A stretch of DNA of 64,000 nt from Microcoleus vaginatus HSN003 (GTDB taxonomy: Bacteria; Cyanobacteriota; Cyanobacteriia; Cyanobacteriales; Microcoleaceae): NCBI RefSeq assembly GCF_022701255.1, contig NZ_CP031705.1:682001-746000 (forward strand), written 5' to 3'. Below the pieces are notes generated by a model that made no database searches, was not told the DNA's origin, and saw only the letters and a program-made list of their open reading frames with translations. This document shows, piece by piece, positions 1 to 2,782 of this stretch; position 1 is the first letter of the stretch; each line of letters opens with the position of its first letter. The position numbers were made by a program, and so were the translations under genes.

Positions 1-2258
1 GTCACATCGCCGTAACCTCTTCCCTCCAAATCTTCCAATAGCTTAACTCCGGCTTCAGGACTGGCGATCGCCATTACATATCGTCCGGGAGTTTGAGTGG
101 GAATAAAATTGATAATTTCATCGACTTGGCGAGTCAGAAGCCAAGAAGTATCAATATCCACTGGCGGCCCTTGAATTCTCTGAGCTTGAATAAAATCAAG
201 TACCTCTGGATTAAAACTAGCATTTCCAGAATTCCCGTAATAAACTCGACCCATTGGGTGTCCTGGAATCGGCGGTGTCACCTGCAAATTGCCGTATCCG
301 TCAGACCACTGACTTACAGGATCTAAAGAACGAGGATTGCCAATTTTAAATACTTTCAAATCCCGGTCTTGAGTTGATTTAACAGGCGGGTTTTTCTCTG
401 GTTCGCTATTGCTTTTTAGGGTGACATTAAACTGGCGTATGTCCGATTTTTCGGGGAGTTGAACGTATCCGTTTTTCTGGGTATCTTGCATCCAAGTGCG
501 ATCGCCCTGGAGAATTTTTACTTTAGCGCCCGTGGGTTCTACTGCTCGTTTTAGTTGCGAGATAAATTCGCTGTTTACCGCGCCTCTGTCGCTGACCTGA
601 ACTTCGGTTACTGGTGCTGTATTGGGCGCTATCATCCAAGGACTAACGCCCATTTGGATTGTTGTGGAGGCGATTTCTTGACCGTTGTTTTGGGCAGTTG
701 CTTTGAGATTAACAGTGCCGTTCCAATTGCGATCGGCAAATTGTTTTGCTTCCACACCTAAAACAATATTCTTGCTAAAAACTAGAGGTTTAGCACCGGA
801 TATATCTACAGGTTGCCAGCCGTCGCCCGTCTTCTGAAAAACGCTGATGTGAGGGCTAGCAATGCTGTCAGCAGTGATAAATAATTGAGAGGTTTTGAAG
901 TTTTCAGACAGTGTTAAGTTAACTTGAGAAAGCATTGCTGCACGGCGAGGAGCGCTAACTTTGGTTTGTTTCCAAGTCGGTATCTTGCCGCGATCGTTAT
1001 TGCGATCGTTAAATGAAATTAGCGCGCCCTTGGACAAAGACCATTGTTCTTTTCCGGCGTCGTCTTGCTCGTTAATTTGGCCATCTCTGTTAGTATCTCC
1101 CACAAACAAAAAGTTCGGCGGGGATGCAGCCGGCGTAACTGGGGCGGAAGTTGGTGTTGCAGTTGGTTCAGGAGTGGGTTGAGAAGTTGCTTGCTGATTT
1201 CTCTCTAACTCTTGTCTTTCAAGTTCTTGTCTGGCTAATTCTTGTCTGGCTAACTCTTGTCTTTCAAGTTCTTGTCTGGCTAACTCTTGCCTTTCAAGTT
1301 CTTGTCTTTCAACTTCTTTTCTGGCTAACTCTTGCCTTTCAAGTTCTTGTCTTTCAAGTTCTTGTCTGGCTGCTTCTTGCCTTTCAAGTTCTTGTCTGGC
1401 TAACTCTTGCCTTTGGAATTCTTGCCTTTCAAGTTCTTTCCTGGCTAACTCTTGCCTTTGGAATTCTTGCCTCTCAAGTTCTTTCCTGGCTGATTCTTGC
1501 CTTTCAAGCTCTTTCCTGGCTAATTCTTGCCTTTGGAATTCTTGCCTTTCAAGTTCTTTTCTAGCCCGGTCTTTTTTCTCTTGCTCTTTTCTCTCTCTTT
1601 CTCGACGAGCAAATTCTTTTTTCTCTTGCTCTTTGCGGGCTCGCTCTCTTATCTGTTCTTCCTCAGCTCTAACTTTCTCCACAGAACGTGCAACTTGCAT
1701 CTGATAGGTAGCGACACTGAGGTTTCCTTGGTATTCGATGGTTTTGTCGATCGCCCGATCGGCCAAAAAAGATTCGTGAGGAATGAGTCGCAGTGTATTG
1801 ATAGCCAACTGCCACATCCGCTGGGACTGTTCCCAAGTAGCAGAAGAAGGATTAGAAGTGCGTCCAATTAAGACTGCTTGGGCCGCTAATTTAGCAGCAT
1901 CGTCCCAATTATATTTGGCTCTTTCTTCTATTTGAATCTGACTTTGAACGTTTTGGAGTTGCTGCGTCAGAGTTTGGGATTGCTGGCGGTGGATTGCTGA
2001 TTTCCAAACTTCTGCCGGAAACGGGGCGCTGTCGGGAGTTTTGGCAAGGTTATCTAATTGTACTTTGAGCCGATCGCGCAATTTGTAGAGTTCGGAAAGG
2101 GATTGCGGAGTTTCGGCCTCTGGCTGTCGCCCAGAGATTGCGAGTTGGTAGTTTAGGGAAGGTTGAGCCACTGTTGTGGGGACTGCAACCCAAATAATAC
2201 CGATGACGACACCGAAACCATTGATAATGGCGATCGCAATATATTTAACCAAGCGCAT
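1..2258 (-). CDS. Protein-arginine deiminase (PAD)-type secreted protein, partial (C terminus outside window)
   Basis: Starts at ATG 2258 and stays open to the window edge (about 752 residues). Domains in order: N-terminal signal/anchor (MRLVKYIAIA, hydrophobic to about residue 30); helical region; Glu/Arg/Gln-rich repeats of the LARQELERQE type (about residues 205-355); Pro/Thr linker; an EF-hand-like loop DTNRDGQIN from D388; then the PAD middle and catalytic domains. Diagnostic matches to animal PADs are SPWMIAPNT (PAD4 APWIMTPNT), WMQD at 589-592 containing the first catalytic Asp, DGYGNLQVTPP, and WLLTRQVDEIINF, matching WLSVGHVDEFLSF. In the last motif the catalytic His is Gln711 while Asp713 is kept. 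PADs convert peptidyl arginine to citrulline with calcium, and cyanobacterial PADs are known. The active-site Cys lies outside the window, so activity cannot be judged. Family assignment is firm; function here is open. Confidence 0.88.
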   Translation of the reverse strand, partial: MRLVKYIAIAIINGFGVVIGIIWVAVPTTVAQPSLNYQLAISGRQPEAETPQSLSELYKLRDRLKVQLDNLAKTPDSAPFPAEVWKSAIHRQQSQTLTQQLQNVQSQIQIEERAKYNWDDAAKLAAQAVLIGRTSNPSSATWEQSQRMWQLAINTLRLIPHESFLADRAIDKTIEYQGNLSVATYQMQVARSVEKVRAEEEQIRERARKEQEKKEFARRERERKEQEKKDRARKELERQEFQRQELARKELERQESARKELERQEFQRQELARKELERQEFQRQELARQELERQEAARQELERQELERQELARKEVERQELERQELARQELERQELARQELARQELERQELERNQQATSQPTPEPTATPTSAPVTPAASPPNFLFVGDTNRDGQINEQDDAGKEQWSLSKGALISFNDRNNDRGKIPTWKQTKVSAPRRAAMLSQVNLTLSENFKTSQLFITADSIASPHISVFQKTGDGWQPVDISGAKPLVFSKNIVLGVEAKQFADRNWNGTVNLKATAQNNGQEIASTTIQMGVSPWMIAPNTAPVTEVQVSDRGAVNSEFISQLKRAVEPTGAKVKILQGDRTWMQDTQKNGYVQLPEKSDIRQFNVTLKSNSEPEKNPPVKSTQDRDLKVFKIGNPRSLDPVSQWSDGYGNLQVTPPIPGHPMGRVYYGNSGNASFNPEVLDFIQAQRIQGPPVDIDTSWLLTRQVDEIINFIPTQTPGRYVMAIASPEAGVKLLEDLEGRGYGDV
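1200..1650 (-). repeat. In-frame coding repeats of the PAD-type protein
   Basis: Degenerate tandem DNA repeats of about 15 to 30 bp encode alternating LARQE, LARKE, ELERQE and EFQRQE units. The result is a long, highly charged helix (or coiled coil) of about 150 residues between the N-terminal domain and the PAD core. The opposite strand reads as an artificial Leu/Phe-rich frame. Confidence 0.85.
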
Positions 2259-2325: not shown

Positions 2326-2430
2326 GGACTTACGCATGGCGGCCCAGAAACCGGGTTTTTTAATAAAATACTTCGTTGCTGCAGACTGATTCGCTAAAAA
2401 CCCGGTTTCTTTGTCGGAGTCCGTAAGTCT
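2326..2430. repeat. Dispersed ~105-bp palindromic (MITE-like) element, copy A
   Basis: The ends are near-perfect inverted repeats (GACTTACGCA at left, reverse complement of GACTTACGG at right). Inside lies a second inverted pair, AGAAACCGGGTTTTTT and AAAAACCCGGTTTCTTT. The reverse complement of the whole unit matches the element at 27847-27952, including its centre. It encodes nothing and lies just upstream of the PAD-type gene. Confidence 0.75.
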
Positions 2431-2455: not shown

Positions 2456-2782
2456 TTAAGCAGCCTCATTTTCTCTGATTGCTGTTTCAATTTCTTCTGG
2501 GTAAGCATCAGCATAAGCCCAAGCATTGACTAAATCAGCCGCAGTCAAATGAGGATAGCACTTCAAAAGTTCAGCATCGCTAGATCCGAGACGGCGATAA
2601 CCCACAAGTACCCAAACTGGTATGCGAGTATTGCCGATACAAGCATCGCCGCCGCACACACCAGGAGTTTTTTTAATGCCTAGAGAACCAGTGCTTAAGG
2701 TTTGAAGTAAAATTTCTATAACCGCTGCTTTATCGCCTGAATTTAAGGTTGAGATTTGAGTTTCTAATTCTTGTATAGTCAT
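2456..2782 (-). CDS. DUF433 domain protein
   Basis: 108 residues, the usual length for a stand-alone DUF433 protein. The C-terminal half carries the DUF433 signature: TPGVCGGDACIGNTRIPVW, a glycine/tyrosine turn, LLKCYPHLTAADLVNAWAYA, and a terminal acidic helix. DUF433 domains have a winged-helix-like fold and many members are antitoxins next to PIN or DUF5615 toxins, but no toxin gene is visible here. The N-terminal 40 residues (MTIQELETQISTL...) resemble a short helical leader common in cyanobacterial members. A broken second copy follows upstream on the same strand (2838-3067), so the locus has been duplicated. Function is unknown; the family call is secure. Confidence 0.85.
   Translation of the reverse strand: MTIQELETQISTLNSGDKAAVIEILLQTLSTGSLGIKKTPGVCGGDACIGNTRIPVWVLVGYRRLGSSDAELLKCYPHLTAADLVNAWAYADAYPEEIETAIRENEAA

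Follow-up and report, generated by a model that had tools for sequence, protein, structure and literature searches.

The gene examined here lies at the edge of the window, i.e. of the whole stretch of 64,000 nucleotides of Microcoleus vaginatus HSN003 that was analysed. It codes for a putative pseudo-PAD (PAD, protein-arginine deiminase) on the minus strand: its ATG is at window position 2258 and it runs past the window start, which falls within the gene. The host genome is 6.76 Mb long and consists of one contig, from which the remainder of the gene was taken. The full protein has 902 aa (L009:2550-5258(-)) and the gene ends at genome position 681550. PAD sites are given in PAD4 numbering; we take His471, Asp473, Arg372, Trp347 and His644 to be the PAD4 numbers of the corresponding sites, and Arg372 to be a substrate-binding residue. 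The designations of Cys645, Asp350, Glu353 and Glu411, like those of the Ca2 ligands, follow PMC11402830. Within the window the following features were recognized:

1..2258, minus strand: pseudo-PAD gene, 5' part (residues 1-752), continuing outside the window
2163..2258, minus strand: hydrophobic export-like N-terminus, residues 1-32, kept across the family (sequence and alignment A3)
1653..2099, minus strand: N-terminal helical domain, residues 54-202 (alignment and model)
1200..1646, minus strand: Glu/Arg/Gln/Lys repeat, residues 205-353, 149 aa (sequence and partial model)
699..1097, minus strand: PAD middle domain (PAD_M, weak Pfam match), residues 388-520 (Pfam, alignment)
1..674, minus strand: 5' part of PAD_C (residues 529-893), truncated by the window edge (Pfam, model)
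483..485, minus strand: Asp592 (GAT), equivalent to PAD4 Asp350, retained (sequence, alignment)
474..476, minus strand: Lys595, replacing the Ca1 ligand Glu353 (alignment)
405..407, minus strand: Ser618 at the Arg372 position, two residues ahead of a low-confidence loop of the model (alignment, model)
282..284, minus strand: Gln659, replacing the Ca1 ligand Glu411 (alignment)
126..128, minus strand: Gln711 (CAA), replacing the catalytic His471 (sequence, PAD2 alignment)
120..122, minus strand: Asp713 (GAT), equivalent to PAD4 Asp473, retained (sequence)

The Pfam domain PAD (PF03068) matches residues 528-892 of the translation P0001 with 199 bits, for a curated cut-off of 25, and this is the single PF03068 match of the genome. 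PAD_M gave a weak match of 16 bits, under its cut-off. The same scan of the full protein, up to E 0.1, otherwise returned only HC2, below cut-off, and no PAD_N, so that the protein is not of the three-domain PAD type. A preliminary description of this DNA pointed to cyanobacterial PADs as the likely source of the animal enzymes; this concerns three-domain PADs and is not directly applicable here. Within PAD_M the first loop (GDTNRDG) is retained; the second acidic loop is mostly lost in the window genus, where it holds 1-5 acidic residues versus 8-11 in seven other tabulated genera of the family.

Upstream of the PAD domains, the N-terminus is export-like, as had been claimed and as the sequence bears out; residues 1-32 may be a cleaved signal or a membrane anchor, and the protein is probably exported. 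The helical domain (residues 54-202) has an aligned counterpart in two Cys-keeping proteins, L144 (Zarconia) and L151 (M59), with 26% and 23% identity respectively. The repeat that follows was found in the same-genus N-termini compared and is absent from those of the other genera compared. It had been described as Arg-rich and as part of a possibly arginine-binding protein, which the sequence does not support: with 44 E, 32 R, 24 Q and 11 K per 149 residues the repeat is charge-balanced, so that arginine binding is unsupported for the window protein, and its modelled part is one continuous helix. The model of the N-terminal region contains helices at residues 54-73, 84-132, 139-157 and 166-252, the last of which extends unbroken into the repeat; the repeat was modelled to residue 252, and residues 1-47 are without confidence. 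For this domain model the PDB yielded no match at E 0.001 or better. If the repeat formed one straight helix, the predicted stalk would measure very roughly 20 nm at least (1.5 A per residue).

The model of PAD_M and PAD_C (pLDDT 89.6) matches human PADs across both domains, the top hit being PAD4 (TM 0.88), with 0.89 for PAD1; the predicted fold is thus that of a PAD. Confidence drops at model residues 242-253, a gap which starts two residues past the Arg372 position.

The catalytic site was read from an alignment to human PAD2, in which QVDE falls on HVDE and QSATN on HCGTN. Together with the Pfam score this alignment upholds the family assignment made in the preliminary description, and the change of the catalytic His to Gln711 and the retention of both catalytic Asp, which it had also reported, were found again, in the DNA as well as in the alignment. 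Once the C-terminal part beyond the window had been obtained, as had been recommended, a second change appeared there: the nucleophile Cys645 is replaced by Ser879 (TCG), and its neighbour His644 by Gln878. There is no cysteine at all among the 901 residues of P0001 (initial Met left out). The positions of Arg372, Glu353 and Glu411 are occupied by Ser, Lys and Gln, and the equivalents of Asp350, Asp473 and Trp347 are retained. Compared with a catalytic PAD, the window protein therefore lacks the Cys nucleophile, the catalytic His and the Ca1 ligands and has both Asp. Such a sequence strongly supports reading it as a pseudoenzyme, probably devoid of activity. The best-matching PAD2 chain has E 6e-44, versus 5e-22 for the best PADI6 chain.

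A phylum-wide draw yielded a PAD gene in 25 of 386 genomes; in family f1, to which the window genome belongs (mostly NCBI Microcoleaceae), it is present in 57 of 61 genomes, and in 50 of 52 among the better ones, at one place per genome, G394 excepted. No in-frame stop lies inside any PF03068 match listed for these 57 genomes. G394 has a PAD gene with a frame break, G399 an aberrant C-terminus, and the Hydrocoleum copy (G429) is in two parts, with the break ahead of PAD_M and next to an undetermined base. Two drafts more than 90% complete (G416 and G434) gave no PAD match. The clade comprises Microcoleus, Tychonema, Planktothrix, Okeania, Trichodesmium, Lyngbya, Kamptonema and Hydrocoleum, all Microcoleaceae at NCBI. 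Names and groupings do not always agree: the protein of a record titled Microcoleus vaginatus WJT46 keeps its Cys and lies outside the family with Oscillatoria, and MAGs titled Richelia and Oscillatoriaceae fall inside the clade.

Catalytic positions were compared in 55 readable family copies, i.e. the 57 minus loci L079 (a MAG with an aberrant C-terminus) and L080 (frame break). None of the 55 has Cys in the nucleophile column, which contains Ser in 38, Asp in 13, Thr in 2, Met in 1 and Ala in 1. The His471 column contains His in 25, Gln in 27 and Asn in 3. Asp350 is retained in 38 copies, Glu353 in 27, Arg372 in 26, and Glu411 and His644 in 17 each; Trp347 is retained in 55/55 and Asp473 in 54/55. 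Stray cysteines elsewhere in PAD_M and PAD_C occur once each in 5 of the 57 copies (1/3 in g2, 4/10 in g3). As to L080, of the dead type and from a g148 genome, its second piece carries RQVDE and NAGLN.

Each genus shows its own pattern. In the window's genus, counting the window copy itself, Gln replaces the catalytic His in 27/27 copies and QSATN is present in all 26 readable ones, L079 being unreadable at the second motif. The preliminary description had proposed to check whether Gln711 and the Cys nucleophile are conserved in close relatives, and only Gln711 is, since Ser stands in the place of the nucleophile. His471, Glu353 and Glu411 are changed in all 27 (Glu353 always to Lys), and Arg372 is retained in 2/27. 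In Planktothrix, Asp350 is Gly in 10/10. In the group formed by Okeania, Trichodesmium and Hydrocoleum (g4, g149, g145 and g146; 13 genomes, loci L024, L036-L040, L042-L046, L048 and L053), Asp takes the place of Cys; Asp350, His471, Asp473, Arg372, Trp347 and Glu411 are retained in 13/13 and Glu353 in 12/13.

Outside the family, relatives of the same type retain Cys, His and both Asp in 19 of 20 readable cases. The same 19 also retain Arg372 and Glu353, and one has Asp for Glu411. Five Cys-keeping f2 proteins have exactly one Cys each in PAD_M and PAD_C, that of HCATN. The twentieth protein, M7585 (L141/L210, an Oscillatoriaceae MAG), was tabulated apart: it has Ser for Cys and no Arg aligned at 372, and its Ca1 glutamates are replaced by Lys and Gln, just as in Microcoleus. 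Loci L215, L034 and L216-L219 and genome G532 were left out of these counts. Cys, His and both Asp are likewise retained in 6/6 cyanobacterial PADs of the three-domain type (6 of 7, L017 left out) and in 19/19 PADs of other bacteria. The Ca2 ligands of PAD4 are not preserved in the intact relatives, which have Thr, Asn/Lys and Ser/Gly in place of Glu351, Asp369 and Asn373 respectively; we assumed these relatives to be active. Two other observations were made at the loci set aside. In Baaleninema simplex PCC 7105 (L215/L152) the PAD gene has a frame break, and its second piece carries RHVDE and HCATN. L216-L219 (genera g187 and g201) are open frames of 996-1090 aa in which a long N-terminal part precedes a divergent PAD domain with HVDE and HC(A/G)TN retained, and both g187 genomes have another PAD-like match besides.

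A tree was built from 44 chosen rows (alignment A2, with 48 rows, includes 10 of the 19 loci L154-L172). All 31 proteins of the family group in a single clade (support 100/99), and the proteins of Oscillatoria, Zarconia and Phormidium/Geitlerinema fall outside it. On this tree Cys and His each require at least two changes. M7585 groups with Oscillatoria; holding it in one clade with the family was not rejected (AU p 0.077). One further position bears on the number of losses. Arg537 is Arg in 19/19 outside relatives, 19/19 other bacteria and 5/6 three-domain rows, and Gly in 55/55 family copies, the Asp group included. M7585 keeps this Arg, for which reason we consider two losses of Cys, one in the family ancestor and one separately in M7585, likelier than one. 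A single loss including M7585 is disfavoured by the Arg537 pattern, despite the AU test.

Selection was estimated on PAD_C from 49 of the 57 family copies, by pairwise values which are not independent of each other. Median dN/dS is 0.18 in Microcoleus (26 copies; 318/325 pairs), 0.086 in Planktothrix (10 copies; 44/45 pairs) and 0.119 in the Okeania/Trichodesmium group (13 copies; 77/78 pairs). Four intact sets of four sequences each gave medians of 0.142, 0.138, 0.174 and 0.121, from 6, 5, 3 and 6 of the 6 possible pairs. There is overlap between the first and the second set; the Phormidium set has at least one genome in common with the f2g5 set. By this measure the PAD_C of the pseudo-PADs is under purifying selection, like that of the intact sets. 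Conservation was also compared column by column. Intact PADs share 75 conserved columns; of these, 7/9 active-site or Ca columns versus 18/66 others keep their residue in fewer than 50 of the 55 family copies (Fisher p 0.005), a contrast that describes more than it tests, since the nine columns were picked after the alignment had been seen.

These results leave little room for the gene as a decaying pseudogene under relaxed selection. The changes at active-site and Ca-ligand positions do differ by genus and G394 has a frame break, as decay would produce; against this stand the lack of in-frame stops in the PF03068 matches listed for the 57 genomes, dN/dS values as low as in the intact sets, and the 48 of 66 conserved non-active-site columns that are kept in at least 50 of 55 copies. 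We regard such decay as very unlikely. A read or assembly error behind CAA, which the preliminary description had named as what would overturn it, is excluded because the 26 readable same-genus copies all share Gln711 and Ser879, and the PAD2 alignment spans both motifs; the probability of an artefact of reading, assembly or alignment is negligible. The same description had offered the choice between a pseudoenzyme and an enzyme of altered chemistry. The first is strongly supported by the sequence. The second, with Ser or Asp acting in place of Cys, could appeal to the intact predicted fold and to the remaining Asp350 and Asp473; it has to accommodate a window protein free of cysteine, with His, Arg372 and the Ca1 ligands changed, and a nucleophile column whose residue varies by genus (S, D, T, M or A), although a single conserved residue would be expected there in an enzyme. 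It appears extremely improbable.

A less remote alternative is a reader of arginine peptides, in which catalysis would be lost and the pocket would still bind arginine side chains, like PADs mutated at the catalytic Cys. The substrate in the holo PAD4 structure is bound to a Cys-to-Ala mutant, and the structure of PAD3 was solved for the C646A form. The Asp group, whose 13 genomes retain the listed pocket residues around the replaced Cys, would suit such a role, as would the near-complete retention of Trp347 and Asp473 in the family. The loss of Arg537 in the Asp group too, and the state of the window genus, argue against it. The Microcoleus pocket residues are changed, so that the reader is a better fit for the sister genera than for the window protein. 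We consider it unlikely. By sequence the Okeania/Trichodesmium group would be the best arginine-reader candidate, the window protein representing a more decayed stage.

The explanation we favour, and consider probable, is an exported pseudo-deiminase with a PAD_M+PAD_C fold, whose catalysis was lost in the f1 ancestor and which has been retained for binding or scaffolding. In that ancestor Cys would have been lost and Arg537, almost invariant elsewhere, would have become Gly for good. The changes at His, Asp350 and Arg372 and at the Ca1 ligands would have followed, each genus going its own way, with purifying selection still acting on the domain. Once exported, the protein would present its PAD head on the N-terminal helical domain, in Microcoleus together with the charge-balanced helical stalk, and the head would probably bind or scaffold in the envelope or outside the cell, without catalysis. 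A wider form of this explanation, which we put forward tentatively, is that an exported dead PAD goes back to the common ancestor of the whole family and serves as a surface scaffold or arginine reader, and that the genera are successive stages of loss. These stages would lead from Okeania/Trichodesmium, with only Cys changed to Asp and the pocket kept, to Microcoleus, with pocket and calcium sites dismantled.

A known PAD close to this description is PADI6, a mammalian oocyte PAD which, according to PMC11402830, is inactive in vitro and does not bind Ca2+; its Ca1 glutamates are replaced, its Cys position is Ala flanked by cysteines, and its His and both Asp are kept. It resembles the window protein in having a PAD fold (predicted in the latter) with altered catalytic residues, a nucleophile position changed to Ala in PADI6 and to Ser in the window protein, and other residues in place of the two Ca1 glutamates (Ala/Met and Lys/Gln, respectively). 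It differs in keeping His, where the window protein has Gln and no Cys, and the window protein has in addition an export-like N-terminus, a helical domain and stalk, and no Pfam PAD_N. A common origin of the losses is unlikely, because Cys-keeping relatives stand between the two. Among these, the cyanobacterial PADs of Oscillatoria, Phormidium/Geitlerinema and Zarconia are closest in the tree, with the same PAD_M+PAD_C and with hydrophobic N-termini in those compared, but retain the catalytic residues, M7585 excepted. The three-domain cyanoPADI and animal PADs have homologous PAD_M and PAD_C, on which the window model superposes in the case of human PADs; unlike the window protein, cyanoPADI has PAD_N, keeps its catalytic residues and is active and Ca-dependent, as reported in PMC8826395.

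That survey (Cummings et al.) describes the catalytic residues as fully conserved, and its main text makes no mention of Oscillatoria, Microcoleus, Trichodesmium, Arthrospira or Planktothrix. We found no earlier report of a cyanobacterial PAD pseudoenzyme in the open-access literature, which is no proof of absence, and no open-access paper on a protein-arginine deiminase in Microcoleus or cyanobacterial proteomics, or on PAD4 C645S together with H471; among the matches listed for literature on the family genera, no deiminase term appeared. The family suggests that, not only in mammals, a PAD fold may be of use to its owner even when it no longer citrullinates, and would, if the favoured explanation is true, be a bacterial parallel to PADI6. 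A PAD role beyond catalysis becomes testable here, because the genera differ in what they have lost and Cys-keeping relatives exist. For such proteins an annotation as deiminase from the Pfam match alone would mislead.

The genomic neighbourhood was examined by clustering the ORFs around 18 loci (9 in the family, 9 outside), which showed nothing family-wide besides the PAD gene. Neighbours are common only within Microcoleus (L081/L093) and between g4 and g149 loci (L085/L086). Since no partner gene was found, the proposed binding role was reached by exclusion. Just upstream of the gene, at window positions 2327-2429, lies a palindromic element with arms of 34 nt, 79% complementary and 35 nt apart. 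At least 39 further matches, 72-94% identical, occur in the same genome (40 of 165 candidates scored), and the dispersed element looks like a small mobile or MITE-like repeat. A small ORF of 108 aa adjoins the gene (window 2456-2782); it may resemble DUF433-type proteins, and two related small ORFs are present at the Microcoleus-genus locus L093.
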